A stretch of DNA of 56,713 nt from Planctomycetota bacterium (lineage in GTDB: Bacteria > Planctomycetota > Phycisphaerae > UBA1845). The DNA lies in the NCBI GenBank assembly GCA_016860685.1, contig BOJX01000007.1, positions 1-56,713 of the forward strand. The letters are read 5' to 3'. The notes under the pieces were generated by a model. It saw only the letters and a program-made list of their open reading frames with translations. It searched no databases and was not told the DNA's origin. The position numbers and the translations under genes were made by a program. Below are positions 23,157 to 29,256 of the stretch, in pieces (within the stretch, counting starts at the first letter, position 1; every line of letters starts with the position of its first letter).

Positions 23157-24848
23157 GTGGAGAATCGGAGTCGAGCCTTGAGTCAGTTCAGCGTTCCTTG
23201 GACGGCGCGGTATCGGCCCAGCGGGAGCGTGTTCGCTCGGAATACGCTCGTCGTGGGAGCGCTGTTGGGGGGTTTCGGCGTATTCGGGCTGGGAGCCGCG
23301 GAGTCGGCGCTGGAGGGGCATCCGGCGGCGACGTTCCTGCTGGGGATCGGTCCGCTGGCGACGGCGGCGGCGCTCGTCGGCTTGGCGATCGTCATCAAGG
23401 CGTGGCGCGGGGTGGAATCATTCCTGATGCGGGCCGCGTTCCCGATCCTCCTCGGAGCGATCGCGGGGACGACGGTGGGCGTGTTCCTGGGCGCCTTGTT
23501 CTTCGAGTGGGTGCAGTCCCTGATCGGGCATGCCGCCAACGACCGCACGAGGTTCACGTATTTCGGCGGAGAACTTCTGCTTTCGGAGATCGCGGCGGCC
23601 TTGCCGAACCTGCCGAGGCTGGTTCACGGGGCGGTCTGGTTGTTCCAGTTCCCGCTGGTGCGCGACGTGGTGAACCTCGGGGTGATTTTCGGGGTGATCA
23701 ACGTGGTCCCCGCGTACATGATCTGGTGGGAGCGGAAGATCGCCGGGCGGATTCAGTCGCGCCTGGGTCCGATGCGGGTCGGTCGCTGGCACGGCTGGGC
23801 GCAGACGGTCGCCGACGGCGTGAAGCTGATCTTCAAGGAAGACCTGATCCCCGAGGGCGCGGACAAGCCGTTGTTCAAGCTGGCGGCGTACTTGGCGTTC
23901 GTGCCGGTGGTGCTGGCGTTCGTGGCGCTGCCGTTCGGGGCGACCTACGTATTCCGCGAGATGGACGTGGCGCTGGTGTTCATCCTCGCGATGATGGGCA
24001 TCGAGGTGGTGGGGGTGATCCTGGCGGGGTGGGCGTCGAACAACAAGTGGAGCGTGTACGGCGCGATGCGCGAGGCGTGCCAGATGGTGGCGTACGAGAT
24101 CCCGATGGGCCTCGCGCTGATCCTGCCGGTGATCGCGGCGGGAACGCTGAACCTGACGCACATCGTGTCGGCGCAGGACGGCGGGTGGTTCAACTGGCTG
24201 GCGTTCAGGAATCCGTTTCTCTTCGCGGGGTTCGTCTGCTACTACATCGCGTCGCTGGCGAGCTGCAAGCGGGCGCCGTTCGACCTTCCGGAATCGGAAA
24301 GCGAGCTGGTCGCGGGGTTTCACACAGAGTATTCGGGGTTCCGCTGGAGCCTGTTCTTCTTCGCCGAGTATGCGGCGATGTTCGTGGTGTCGGGTCTTGC
24401 GGTGATCCTGTACCTGGGCGGGTGGAACTCGTTCATCCCGCCGCATTGGGTGGCGGGCGTCGGCGAGGGGGTGCTGGGCCGGGCGGTCGAGGGGCTGCTG
24501 GTGAGCGGTCCGCTGTGGTTCTTCGCCAAGGTGATCTTCCTCCTTTATGTTCAGCTCTGGCTGCGGTGGACGCTGCCGCGCATCCGGATCGACCAGGTGT
24601 TGTATGCGTGCGTGCAAGTGATGCTGCCGCTGACGATGCTGCTGTTGATCGGGAACGTGCTGTGGGTCTGGGCGGATACGGCGTGGTTCGGCGGCGGATG
24701 GGCCGGGTTGTCGCGGGTCATGAACTGGGCGCTGGGAGGGATCGGCGCGATGTTCATGTTCGGGTTCGTGGCGATTGCGGCGTACGGCTTCTATCACCGT
24801 CGGCGGCTGGTGGGGAACCTGGTGGTGGACCCGTTGCCGGCGTCGTAG
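23157..24848 (+). CDS. nuoH: NADH-quinone oxidoreductase subunit H with N-terminal extension
   Basis: YMIWWERKIAGRIQSRLGPMRVGRWHGWAQTVADGVKLIFKEDLIPEGADKPLF; PFDLPESESELVAGFHTEYSG; start codon uncertain. Confidence 0.93.
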   Translation: MENRSRALSQFSVPWTARYRPSGSVFARNTLVVGALLGGFGVFGLGAAESALEGHPAATFLLGIGPLATAAALVGLAIVIKAWRGVESFLMRAAFPILLGAIAGTTVGVFLGALFFEWVQSLIGHAANDRTRFTYFGGELLLSEIAAALPNLPRLVHGAVWLFQFPLVRDVVNLGVIFGVINVVPAYMIWWERKIAGRIQSRLGPMRVGRWHGWAQTVADGVKLIFKEDLIPEGADKPLFKLAAYLAFVPVVLAFVALPFGATYVFREMDVALVFILAMMGIEVVGVILAGWASNNKWSVYGAMREACQMVAYEIPMGLALILPVIAAGTLNLTHIVSAQDGGWFNWLAFRNPFLFAGFVCYYIASLASCKRAPFDLPESESELVAGFHTEYSGFRWSLFFFAEYAAMFVVSGLAVILYLGGWNSFIPPHWVAGVGEGVLGRAVEGLLVSGPLWFFAKVIFLLYVQLWLRWTLPRIRIDQVLYACVQVMLPLTMLLLIGNVLWVWADTAWFGGGWAGLSRVMNWALGGIGAMFMFGFVAIAAYGFYHRRRLVGNLVVDPLPAS

Positions 24849-24912
24849 GACGTTCATTGCGAAGGGTGATCGGCGAATCACGAATGAATAACGAATGCTG
24901 AGAACAAGCATC

Positions 24913-25521
24913 ATGTCGCTGCATGTGGGGACGGTGTTGCTGTGCGTTACGGCGATGCCTGCGCTGGCGCACGAGGAGGCCGCCTCGGGCGTGGGGACGG
25001 GCGTGGTGTACGCCGTTCCCGGGGGCTGGTTCGAGGCGGTGATGTTCTACGTCTTCGCGGGGACGGCGGTGCTCTCGGCCATCGGGGTGTGTGTCTCGCG
25101 GAGCGTGGTGCGGATGGCGACGTGGTTGTTCTTCGCGCTGGGGGCGATCTCGGTTCTGTATTTTCTGCTGGCGGCGACGTTCATCGCGGCGATTCAGTTG
25201 ATTGTTTACGTCGGCGGCGTGCTGATTCTGCTGATTTTCGGCGTGATGCTGACGAGCCAGTCGCCGTGGGTGCGGTTCACGCCGAGCCGGTTGAACCTCG
25301 CGGTGGCGGGGGTGATCTGCGCGGGGCTGCTGGTGTGCCTGTCGTCGATCCTGCTGGAGGCGGACTTCGGGGCGCCGCTTGCGACGACGCCGGGCGTGAC
25401 GGTGGAGGCGATCGGCCGGCGGATGCTGACGCACTACCTCGTGCCTTTCGAGATTGCGGGGGTGCTGCTGATGATCGTGATGGTGGGGGCGGCGCACCTG
25501 GCGCGGCAGGAGAAGAGTTGA
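24913..25521 (+). CDS. nuoJ: NADH-quinone oxidoreductase subunit J
   Basis: FYVFAGTAVLSAIGVCVSRSVVRMATWLFFALGAISVLYFLLAATFIAAIQLIVYVGGVLILLIFGVMLT. Confidence 0.92.
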   Translation: MSLHVGTVLLCVTAMPALAHEEAASGVGTGVVYAVPGGWFEAVMFYVFAGTAVLSAIGVCVSRSVVRMATWLFFALGAISVLYFLLAATFIAAIQLIVYVGGVLILLIFGVMLTSQSPWVRFTPSRLNLAVAGVICAGLLVCLSSILLEADFGAPLATTPGVTVEAIGRRMLTHYLVPFEIAGVLLMIVMVGAAHLARQEKS

Positions 25522-25537
25522 GAAGAAGGAAATCCGG

Positions 25538-26020
25538 ATGGGGCTGAAGCACCGGCTGTCAGGTGGAGAGTGCATCTCGGGCTTCGAGCAGGCCCGTGAA
25601 GATCGGGTGCTTGACGCGTTGACATGCGCATTGGATCAGCGGAATTTCGCTGCCTGTTATCTTTTCGGCTATGCCGTTGAAATGATGTTGAAATGCGCAT
25701 ATTTCCGGTTTGCGGGGGTCGAACCGTATGCGGACATTGGTCCACACCGGGCCCAGGCGCGCAGACAGCAGGCTCGCCTGCGCCAGACGGAGCATGATCT
25801 GAGGGCGTGGGCTGAGGCTCTCGTTGAGGAGCGGAACAACCGCGGTCGAGCTTTGGATCCCGGGCTGGCTGGAGCCTTTCTACACCATGTTCTTACGATT
25901 GCGGACCATTGGAGCGAAGTCTTACGCTATCATCCGTCAATTCCAGCGGACTCCGAGGCCGCGGAGATGTGCAATCAGATTGACGAACTTCAGAAGCTTT
26001 ACCCCTTGTTATGGAATTAG
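25538..26020 (+). CDS. HEPN-like domain protein embedded in nuo operon
   Basis: NFAACYLFGYAVEMMLKCAYFRFAGV ... TEHDLRAWAEALVEER ... DHWSEVLRYHP; typical HEPN helix GYAvExxLK; no clear Rx4-6H motif seen. Confidence 0.7.
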   Translation: MGLKHRLSGGECISGFEQAREDRVLDALTCALDQRNFAACYLFGYAVEMMLKCAYFRFAGVEPYADIGPHRAQARRQQARLRQTEHDLRAWAEALVEERNNRGRALDPGLAGAFLHHVLTIADHWSEVLRYHPSIPADSEAAEMCNQIDELQKLYPLLWN

Positions 26021-26023
26021 CTC

Positions 26024-26338
26024 ATGGCTCGCAAACGTATTCCGGCTCGACCGCGCCACAGTCATCCAGAGTTGGTGAATATCCTGGCCGAGGAGCTTCG
26101 GAAGGAAGGTGTGAGCAGCACTCCGGAAATACCGACCATCTATGAAGAAGAACTGCCGTATGGTGCTGGGCTCCACGTGAAGGTCATCTGGAGTCGATGG
26201 GGGAAGGTGCCGCTCGAAGAGCGGGGCGCGATCATCCTGGACGCGTACGAACAGGCGGGCATGGGACAGGAGCGAAAGCGCATTCTCGTGGCGATGGGTC
26301 TTACGCCTGATGAAGCACAGCGCCTTCAGATGGCCTGA
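26024..26338 (+). CDS. Small unknown partner protein of the HEPN-like gene
   Basis: 3-nt spacing after upstream stop; HPELVNILAEELRKEGVSS...LHVKVIWSRWGKVPLEERGAIILDAYEQAGMGQERKRILVAMGLTPDEAQRL. Confidence 0.65.
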   Translation: MARKRIPARPRHSHPELVNILAEELRKEGVSSTPEIPTIYEEELPYGAGLHVKVIWSRWGKVPLEERGAIILDAYEQAGMGQERKRILVAMGLTPDEAQRLQMA

Positions 26339-26352
26339 CAGGTTGGATTCTC

Positions 26353-26664
26353 ATGCTGACGATTGAACTAACTCATTACCTCATCGTCTCCGCCGTGCTG
26401 TTCTGCGCGGGGGTGTTCACGATGGCGACGAAGCGGAACGCGATCGGGATTCTGATCGGCGTGGAGCTGGTGCTGAACAGCGCGAACGTGAACCTGGTGG
26501 CGTTCGACCGGTATCGGGCGGGCCTGATGGACGGGCAGATCGCGGCGTTGTTCGTGATCGTGCTGGCGGCGGCGGAGGCGGCGCTGGCGGTGGCGATCTG
26601 CATGAACTTTTACAAGAACCTGGTGACGGTGGACGTGGACCAGGGGGATGTGCTGCGGGGTTGA
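26353..26664 (+). CDS. nuoK: NADH-quinone oxidoreductase subunit K
   Basis: LTHYLIVSAVLFCAGVFTMATKRNAIGILIGVELVLNSANVNLVAFDRY. Confidence 0.95.
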   Translation: MLTIELTHYLIVSAVLFCAGVFTMATKRNAIGILIGVELVLNSANVNLVAFDRYRAGLMDGQIAALFVIVLAAAEAALAVAICMNFYKNLVTVDVDQGDVLRG

Positions 26665-26805: not shown

Positions 26806-29256
26806 ATGGAACCTGTTCTCGCAAAACTTCTGGCGGCATCGCTGATTACGCCCTTTCTGACCTTCTGGATCCTCGTTCTTTGGGGGCCGAAGATCGGCAA
26901 GCCGCGCGCCGGGTGGGTGGGGCTGATCGGCGGGATGGGCGTTCCGCTGGCGCTGTCGGCGGTCGTGTTCGCGACGTGGTTTTTCACGGGTCCGCAGCAG
27001 CGGGCGGAGCTGACCGCGGCGGCGCAGCATTCGCAGGTGTTCTGGGCGCAGCTCGGCAGCTTCGACGTCACGTTCGGCGTGAAGCTGGACTCGCTGACCG
27101 TCGCGATGCACTTCATGGTGTGCTTCATCGCGTTCTGGATCTTCTTCTTCAGCATCGGGTACATGTCGGGGCACGCGGACTGCGTGCATCATCAGAGCAA
27201 ATACTGGCGGTTCTTCGCCTACCTGGCGTTGTTTGCGTTCTCGATGCTGGGGCTGGTCATCTCGCCGAGTCTGCTGTTCCTCTTCATCTTCTGGGAGCTG
27301 GTGGGGTTGTGCAGCTACCTGCTCATCGGGTTCTACTTCGAGACGGACTACGCGCCGCCGGCGGCGATGAAGGCGTTCATCACCAACCGCGTGGGCGACT
27401 TCGGGTTCATCATCGGGCTGGGGATCGTCTTCACGTTTCTGGGGACGCTGGACCTGGAGGGCGCGGCGGCGGCGTTCAAGACGCAGCTCGCCACGAGCAC
27501 GGGGCTTTTCGCGCCGCAGGTGACGGTCCCGATCTTCGGGTGGACGTTCTCGGGAATGACGCTGGCGACGCTGATGGGCGTGGGCCTGTTCTGCGGGGCG
27601 ATGGGCAAGAGCGCGCAGTTCCCGCTGCACGTCTGGTTGCCGGACGCGATGGCGGGTCCGACGCCGGTGTCGGCGCTGATCCACGCGGCGACGATGGTCG
27701 CGGCGGGGGTGTACCTGGTGGCGCGGGTGTTCCGCCTGCTGACGCCGGATGCGCAGATGTTCATCGCGGTGATCGGGTGCATCACGCTGACCTTCATGGC
27801 GCTGATCGCCATCGTGCAGACGGACATCAAGAAGTGCCTGGCGTATTCGACGCTGTCGCAGCTTGGCTACATGATCTTCGGCATGGGCGTCGGGGCGTGG
27901 ACGGCGGCGCTGTTCCACCTGATCACGCATGCGTTCTTCAAGGCGATGCTGTTCCTCGGCAGCGGGCAGGTGATCGAAGGCTGCCACCACGTGCAGGACA
28001 TGCGGCGGATGGGCGGGCTTCGCACCAAGATGCCGGTGACGTGCTGGACGTTCTTCGTCGGCGTGCTGGCGATCGCGGGCTTCGGGATTCCGGGACTGCA
28101 CCTCGGGCACTGGAAGTTCGGTCTCGGCGGGTTCTTCAGCAAGGACGAGATTCTCGCCGTCGCGTATGACCGGGCTTACAACTGGGGACGGTTTGGCGGG
28201 CATTCGGACGGGCATGCGGAGGCGCGGGCGAAGGGCGAAGCGCGACGGGCGTATACCGAAGAGCCCGCCGGCGGCGGGGCGCGAAGGGCTGAAAGCGACG
28301 CCGGCGGGCGCGGGGTTCGGCTTGCGGCCTTCGCCGGTGAGGGGGCGGAAGATGTTCAATCCCCCGCAGCACGAGAGGGAGACGTTCACGGGGCCGAAGG
28401 CGGCGGACATCACGCAAGCGCGAAAGACGGTGTGGCGTCCGGGATCCGGGCGCTGCCGAAGTGGATGTTCTGGTTCGCCATCCTTACGGCCTACGTGACG
28501 CCGTTCTACATGTTCCGGGCGTGGTGGCTGACGTTCATGGGCAAACCGCGCGATCATCACGTCCACGAGCATGCGCATGAATCGAAGATGATGACGACGC
28601 CGCTGGTGGTGTTGGCGGTGGGGACGTTGGTTTCGAGTTACTTCCTGTTCCGCCCGATGCTGTCGCACGCCGCCGAGGCCGCGGCGGACGCTCCGCTGGT
28701 CGTCGCGGTGGACGGCGAGGCGCGTGAGCCCGCGGCAGCGCTGCTGTCGCTGGATCACACCCCGGAACGCGACCCGCACAAGAAGCTGGTCGGACTGGTG
28801 GGTTTCGCGTTCCTGATCGGTTTCGCGGTTTCGTGGGCGATCTATCGCAACGGGCTGGACGCGGCGTCGCGGATCAAGGCGATTCCGCCTTTCAATCTGC
28901 TGCACACGCTGCTGGAGCGGAAATACTACTTCGACGAGTTGTACGACTTCCTGTGGGTGCGCGGATGCCGGGCGGTGGCGGCGGTGTGTGCGTTCATCGA
29001 CACGTGGGTCATCGACCTGGTGTACAACCTGCTGAGCGGAGTGACGGAGCGGATTGCGGCGTTCTCGGGGCGGGTGCTGGACGCGCAGGGCGTGGACGGG
29101 TTCGTGAACGGGATCAGCGAGACGGCGAACGATCTGGCGGAGGTGCTGCGCAAGCCGCAGACGGGCGGGATCCGCAAGTATGTGTTGTGGAGCGTGGGTC
29201 TGGTGACGGCGGCGATCGCGGCGCTGATTGCGGCGATGCGTGTGAACGGGGGATGA
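26806..29256 (+). CDS. nuoL: NADH-quinone oxidoreductase subunit L with low-complexity insertion
   Basis: WELVGLCSYLLIGFYFETDYAPPAAMKAFITNRVGDFGFIIG; KSAQFPLHVWLPDAMAGPTPVSALIHAATMVAAGVYLVARV. Confidence 0.95.
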   Translation: MEPVLAKLLAASLITPFLTFWILVLWGPKIGKPRAGWVGLIGGMGVPLALSAVVFATWFFTGPQQRAELTAAAQHSQVFWAQLGSFDVTFGVKLDSLTVAMHFMVCFIAFWIFFFSIGYMSGHADCVHHQSKYWRFFAYLALFAFSMLGLVISPSLLFLFIFWELVGLCSYLLIGFYFETDYAPPAAMKAFITNRVGDFGFIIGLGIVFTFLGTLDLEGAAAAFKTQLATSTGLFAPQVTVPIFGWTFSGMTLATLMGVGLFCGAMGKSAQFPLHVWLPDAMAGPTPVSALIHAATMVAAGVYLVARVFRLLTPDAQMFIAVIGCITLTFMALIAIVQTDIKKCLAYSTLSQLGYMIFGMGVGAWTAALFHLITHAFFKAMLFLGSGQVIEGCHHVQDMRRMGGLRTKMPVTCWTFFVGVLAIAGFGIPGLHLGHWKFGLGGFFSKDEILAVAYDRAYNWGRFGGHSDGHAEARAKGEARRAYTEEPAGGGARRAESDAGGRGVRLAAFAGEGAEDVQSPAAREGDVHGAEGGGHHASAKDGVASGIRALPKWMFWFAILTAYVTPFYMFRAWWLTFMGKPRDHHVHEHAHESKMMTTPLVVLAVGTLVSSYFLFRPMLSHAAEAAADAPLVVAVDGEAREPAAALLSLDHTPERDPHKKLVGLVGFAFLIGFAVSWAIYRNGLDAASRIKAIPPFNLLHTLLERKYYFDELYDFLWVRGCRAVAAVCAFIDTWVIDLVYNLLSGVTERIAAFSGRVLDAQGVDGFVNGISETANDLAEVLRKPQTGGIRKYVLWSVGLVTAAIAALIAAMRVNGG
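28341..28368. repeat. Dispersed repeat core copy 2, inside nuoL coding sequence
   Basis: GGGGGCGGAAGATGTTCAATCCCCCGCA; 27/28 identical to 22252..22279. Confidence 0.8.

Follow-up and report, generated by a model that had tools for sequence, protein, structure and literature searches.

Between nuoJ and nuoK of the complex I operon in the window (the whole 56,713-nt stretch of Planctomycetota DNA analysed here) lies a pair of small genes whose products are predicted to adopt a HEPN fold and a BolA-like fold. The sequence-only reading that drew attention to this locus had proposed looking for the same pair elsewhere, and homologous pairs were indeed found in other genomes, within many unrelated housekeeping operons. 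Our preferred interpretation, held with modest confidence, is that the pair constitutes a two-gene toxin-antitoxin (TA)-like HEPN module, possibly one of abortive infection, with a new type of partner and expressed from the host operon.

The HEPN-fold protein is encoded by the first gene of the pair (25538..26020, forward strand, 160 amino acids) and the BolA-fold partner by the second (26024..26338, forward strand, 104 amino acids), which starts 3 nt past the HEPN stop. Upstream lies nuoJ (24895..25521, forward strand; Pfam PF00499, Oxidored_q3, 2e-31), and downstream are nuoK (26353..26664, forward strand; PF00420, Oxidored_q2, 8e-24) and nuoL (26806..29256, forward strand; PF00361, 4e-76). 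The gaps between nuoJ, the HEPN gene, the partner gene and nuoK are 16, 3 and 14 nt, so the co-directional ORFs and their seamless placement in the operon were exactly as first described. The cassette was also confirmed to be less GC-rich than the flanking nuo genes, with a GC content of 0.569 (HEPN gene) and 0.590 (partner gene) against 0.662 (nuoJ) and 0.625 (nuoK), and a GC3 of 0.62 and 0.64 against 0.90, 0.89 and 0.88 for nuoJ, nuoK and nuoL (~0.89). Neither a promoter-like site internal to the cassette nor an excess of terminator-like sequence was found, and the nuo genes and the pair are therefore likely, judging from sequence, to be co-transcribed. The window cassette showed no transposon-like ends. 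The source genome contains a single copy of each gene; both ORFs are taken to be genuine genes because homologous pairs, in the same order, are present in dozens of other genomes.

Two further observations concern the complex I genes themselves. The usual gene order is H-I-J-K; in the window nuoJ directly follows nuoH (24848-24895), with nuoI not between them. In addition, a second, divergent nuoK-like gene (33% identical) is present elsewhere in the source genome (G000:C90:11517-11804) and in most relatives, which suggests a second complex I-like or antiporter operon.

The suspicion that the first protein is HEPN-like was supported by structure prediction. Its AF2 model, built from 3 sequences, was all-helical (pLDDT 72, pTM 0.69), and the top four Foldseek matches in the PDB were the HEPN structures 1wol, 1ufb, 2hsb and 1o3u, with sacsin (3o10) at rank 6; the HEPN matches had probabilities of 0.95-1.0 and E-values of 0.04-0.4, none reaching 0.001. 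Neither window protein matched Pfam or NCBIfam directly, and searches with the single proteins in Pfam, NCBIfam, PHROGs and the PDB gave nothing or weak matches only, as did the HEPN protein searched alone in 294 genomes of the phylum, in contigs from GTDB and from viruses, and in plasmids. Four homologues (L111, L107, L103 and L105) scored above the cut-off of the Pfam HEPN family PF05168 (31, 28, 29 and 23 bits, respectively, versus 22), the window protein having no match. The PADLOC defence-candidate model PDC-M28A matched many HEPN members (7e-11 to 1e-2) and, weakly, the window protein (E=0.0096). On this basis the first protein is predicted to have a HEPN fold.

Across the family (45 homologues), residues Y41, G44, E48, W125 and R130 never vary, and H86, Y131 and K52 hardly do. 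The corresponding forward-strand codons in the window are 25679..25693 for E48 to K52 of the GYxxExxxK motif (E in 45/45, K in 41/45), 25793..25795 for H86 (H in 44/45) and 25925..25930 for R130-Y131 of the W....RY motif (R in 45/45, Y in 44/45). The Rx4-6H catalytic motif is not universal in the HEPN superfamily. It had been reported as not evident in the window protein, and no Rx4-6H proved to be conserved across the 45 HEPN sequences, indicating that HEPN catalysis may be lost; H86 and R130 are conserved instead. In AF0298-type HEPN-T and AbiV proteins, as described by Anantharaman et al. (PMC3710099), the R is kept, the motif H is missing and a conserved upstream H provides a possible alternative active site. 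By analogy, H86 with R130 fits this H/R pattern, and H86 is a candidate alternative active-site histidine.

The partner had initially been said to match no nameable family; both fold and profile comparisons now identify it as BolA-like. Its AF2 model (pLDDT 81.5, from 6 sequences) has the order alpha-beta-beta-alpha-alpha-beta, which is the BolA topology, and the first 8 Foldseek matches were all BolA (probability 0.35-0.94, E 0.017-0.094, none reaching 0.001). The best match of a partner profile against the PDB was BolA1 (1v60, E=0.0074), three relatives matched Pfam BolA weakly (best 20.4 bits versus a cut-off of 25.7; the window partner had no match), and a broad partner profile picked up a true BolA beside a monothiol glutaredoxin. 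Taken together, these results mean that a predicted BolA (class II KH-like) fold is well supported. In the BolA R-H motif the conserved Arg is followed by a histidine, as in the four BolA references; 45 of 46 partners have Q, G, S, A or another residue in its place, and a BolA-like Fe-S function is not supported for the partner. Weak partner matches at L004, L005 and L006 were judged to be due to chance. A number of partners are extended at the C terminus by an additional domain of ~60-70 residues (L016:5899-6432, L018:2746-3267, L079:5986-6492, L082 and L083); an orphan partner located downstream of an RNase R-like gene also has this domain.

Among 40 close relatives, nuoK was found in 38, and the nuoJ-nuoK junctions were then read. 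In the sister species (G393), whose nuoJ-K-L proteins are 98% identical to those of the window and whose flanking DNA is ~95% identical, nuoJ and nuoK are separated by a spacer of 103 nt that contains no vestige of a cassette, and identity of the flanks continues up to both cassette edges. Three other genera of the window's family have the same HEPN and partner pair at this junction; it is present in G414 and G409 (junctions of 838 and 850 nt) and in G483. The site in G427, a member of a different family, retains the partner but no more of the HEPN gene than a C-terminal remnant. In G468 the partner stands without a HEPN gene and has another partner-like ORF behind it. Of the 32 genomes placed on a nuoJ-K-L tree, 26 were empty, including the sister species, four had the pair and two had the partner only, with five as the fewest changes; the empty sites that the sequence-only reading proposed to look for do exist, and the pair is patchy, although its position at this junction does not change within the lineage. 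Deletion scars at the empty G393 and G392 junctions were not significant (P=0.28 and 0.44), and no recombination tract was seen around the insertion site. Separately, G414 has a further small ORF between nuoK and nuoL (L084:6738-7046, SmpA/OmlA-like by eye), indicating that the nuo operon tolerates several extra genes.

Profile searches were run over the order (114 genomes) and over the phylum (392 genomes), and the DNA surrounding the matches was read. A search of the 392 phylum genomes with the partner returned three copies in one distant genome (G166), each with a HEPN-like ORF ahead of it as in the window, which established that the pair is a real two-gene unit; one of these pairs lies with tiny gaps between genes for an aldehyde dehydrogenase and a boxB-like protein. 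At least 45 HEPN copies were collected (a limited number of candidates was scored per genome, and counts are lower bounds). Consistent with the initial suggestion of a HEPN protein combined with a small partner, 42 of the 45 have a BolA-like partner immediately downstream, the two ORFs mostly overlapping or being spaced by 2-8 nt. The other three HEPN copies, by etfA, hutU and an unidentified gene, are followed by a different small overlapping ORF that is not BolA-like, and represent a sister HEPN set (L105:1462-2246, L108:794-1710 and L110:1450-2264). A HEPN gene with an overlapping ORF, similar to the etfA/hutU-linked set, was also observed on an Acinetobacter johnsonii plasmid, and the unannotated record of Klebsiella phage Kp4864-1 (L139, 14490-14903) contains a HEPN gene whose product shares 42% identity with the etfA-linked HEPN protein.

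Host-operon contexts were assigned by our own reading of translated neighbours. Besides nuoJ-nuoK, pairs were found in the nuo operon at nuoC-nuoD (G485, G468, G476, G465, G470 and G414, and separately G456) and at nuoB-nuoC (G394, same genus as the window). Elsewhere they lie at atpG-atpD (G445), atpA-atpG (G444), groEL-groES (G470), sat-nrnA-like (G435, G423 and G450) and asd-lysA (G266), between acyl-CoA dehydrogenase and 3-hydroxybutyryl-CoA dehydrogenase genes (G414 and G401; partner only in G468), behind icd (G417 and G427), behind the citrate synthase gene gltA (G361) and before sahH (G198). A minority of copies are not tightly embedded (e.g. G455, G167 and G320); G320 has two near-identical HEPN-partner pairs in tandem (L131:1046-2921). 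As a baseline for embedding, genes were called with a simple codon model in twenty 20-kb regions of related genomes, where 36% of junctions were same-strand with a gap of ≤100 nt. Compared with this expectation, 17 of 23 independent cassette groups start ≤100 nt behind a same-strand gene (binomial p=0.0003), and tight spacing on both flanks holds for 12 of the 23 (p=0.09); because the grouping was made by hand and the gene caller is crude, the test is supportive rather than final. The proposal that the pair had landed in the nuo operon therefore stands as regards insertion into an operon, but not as regards a one-off landing, since the same junction is occupied in three other genera and pairs reside in many unrelated operons. 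A TA pair freshly inserted only here is ruled out by the occurrence of the same pair at the same junction in other genomes.

In a tree of the HEPN proteins, clades follow the insertion site (support of 96/93 for nuoJK, 99/96 for nuoCD with nuoBC, 98/94 for sat, 100/98 for acad, 100/100 for icd and 98/87 for atp). The nuo cassette of G456 groups elsewhere in this tree, indicating at least three entries into the nuo operon, at three junctions. HEPN identity within the nuoJK site is only 39-57%; the key residues are retained despite this divergence, which argues for selection acting on the cassette. The data do not separate rare colonisation of each site, followed by persistence with many losses, from re-acquisition at the same site. 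A 77-nt direct repeat (97%), corresponding to the first part of the downstream gene, borders one G166 cassette on both sides and may be the trace of an insertion or duplication route. Decay is asymmetric: five loci keep the partner with the HEPN gene absent, reduced to a remnant or broken by a nonsense codon (which could be a sequencing error), and zero keep the HEPN gene alone (p=0.03). No transposase, integrase or phage/plasmid carriage of the pair was seen, and the type with a BolA-like partner had no homologue in the plasmids or viral contigs searched, which argues against ordinary mobile-element carriage.

We infer a defence or TA flavour for the pair from the HEPN fold, the similarity to PDC-M28A, the strict two-gene order, a trait shared with type II TA modules, and the asymmetric decay; the absence of plasmid and viral matches for the BolA-like type is unusual for a mobile TA system and counts against this reading, as do the family-wide lack of a canonical Rx4-6H and the failure of partner profiles to match any PADLOC antitoxin. 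Under the TA-like model, the HEPN-T-type protein with its alternative H/R active site would be the toxin-like component, and the BolA-fold partner would bind and restrain it. The cassette, apparently without a promoter of its own, would be expressed by riding within a housekeeping operon with strong transcription, in this case that of complex I, and, with the ORFs overlapping or 2-8 nt apart, the partner's translation would be coupled to that of the HEPN gene. If phage takeover or stress made host transcription or translation collapse, a labile partner would disappear before the HEPN protein, which, once freed, would act on RNA or translation. A bolder extension, which we put forward only tentatively, is that promoterless HEPN-BolA-like pairs form an undescribed class of operon-embedded sentinels that repeatedly entered essential, highly expressed Planctomycetota operons (those of complex I, ATP synthase, GroE and the TCA and lysine pathways), with host expression serving as both power supply and alarm; shutdown by phage or stress would make the BolA-like antidote vanish and the HEPN protein would arrest the cell.

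Several rivals to the TA-like model were weighed. An unlikely one, though the best of these, is a cis-acting regulator, in which a non-catalytic RNA-binding HEPN protein and a KH-like partner would bind the host polycistronic mRNA and tune their own operon. Persistence of the cassette at one site within clades, the KH-like partner fold and the missing Rx4-6H are all compatible with this idea, and a similar role has been proposed for MtlR, a largely inactive HEPN protein thought to repress its own mannitol operon (PMC3710099). However, most relatives keep the same operon without the pair (26 of 32 empty), one family serves many unrelated operons, and the near-invariant E/K/H/W/RY set resembles an active or nucleotide-binding site. 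More doubtful still is a selfish addiction pair, that is, promoterless TA-like cassettes that persist in operons costly to lose and bring no host benefit. Such a pair could account for the patchy presence, the clean empty site of the sister species, the three or more separate entries into nuo, the tandem copies, the direct repeat around one copy and the atypical GC3, but site clades in which all key residues are conserved suggest selection, and the mobility functions or carriage sought were not seen.

A role specific to complex I was strongly disfavoured. BolA proteins take part in Fe-S metabolism, and pairs at three nuo junctions would suit an accessory or maturation factor that helps to insert Fe-S clusters into Nuo subunits. 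The sequence-only reading had named conserved accessory subunits always located at this site as a finding that would speak against it. Instead, most relatives have nuo without the pair, homologous pairs occur in ATP synthase, groE, sat, asd-lysA and citrate synthase contexts, and the BolA histidine is replaced in nearly all partners; both a complex I-specific and an Fe-S role of the partner were rejected. Lastly, an assembly or binning artefact of the metagenome-derived source genome (437 contigs, 89.99% complete, 1.56% contaminated) is refuted by recurrence of the pair at the same junction in independent genomes and by flanks whose ~95% identity to the sister genome extends to each boundary of the cassette.

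Few effectors are as common in bacterial immunity and TA systems as HEPN toxins, whose usual partners are nucleotidyltransferases or proteins of defence islands. The present HEPN lineage has a new partner fold, and most of its members sit inside housekeeping operons or close behind them. If it is toxic, expression from an essential operon would be a built-in sensor of host shut-off, offering a testable answer to how chromosomal TA modules are triggered; if the TA-like model is true, BolA-fold proteins would gain a role outside Fe-S metabolism. A literature search, with most subscription journals and preprints outside its coverage, returned no relevant paper linking HEPN with BolA.

Among known systems, the pair resembles HEPN/MNT (HepT/MntA) in being a small two-gene module with a HEPN protein. 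A HEPN/MNT module has been reported as inserted in the lysine biosynthesis operon of Thermus thermophilus HB8 and absent in strain HB27 (PMC2701414), providing a precedent for a HEPN module inside a housekeeping operon. In contrast to HEPN/MNT, the partner here has a predicted BolA fold rather than that of a minimal nucleotidyltransferase (MNT), Rx4-6H is absent, and operon embedding is systematic, not sporadic. AF0298-type HEPN-T (PF05168; pdb 2hsb, the third structural match) and AbiV share the HEPN fold and the H/R pattern, but the available sections of PMC3710099 describe neither a BolA-like partner nor a housekeeping-operon context for them. The PADLOC candidate PDC-M28A is matched by HEPN members, whereas profiles of the BolA-like partners matched no antitoxin or other PADLOC model. 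BolA and IbaG (YrbA) share with the partner a class II KH-like fold and weak sequence similarity; the partner differs in lacking the conserved BolA histidine and in adjoining a HEPN gene or HEPN remnant, or being orphaned, rather than adjoining glutaredoxin. MtlR, too, is a HEPN protein that often lacks Rx4-6H and whose gene lies in a metabolic operon, but it has no BolA-like partner and is tied to one operon only. Relative to these systems, three features are new here: a partner of BolA-like type, embedding that is systematic, and entry into the complex I operon more than once.
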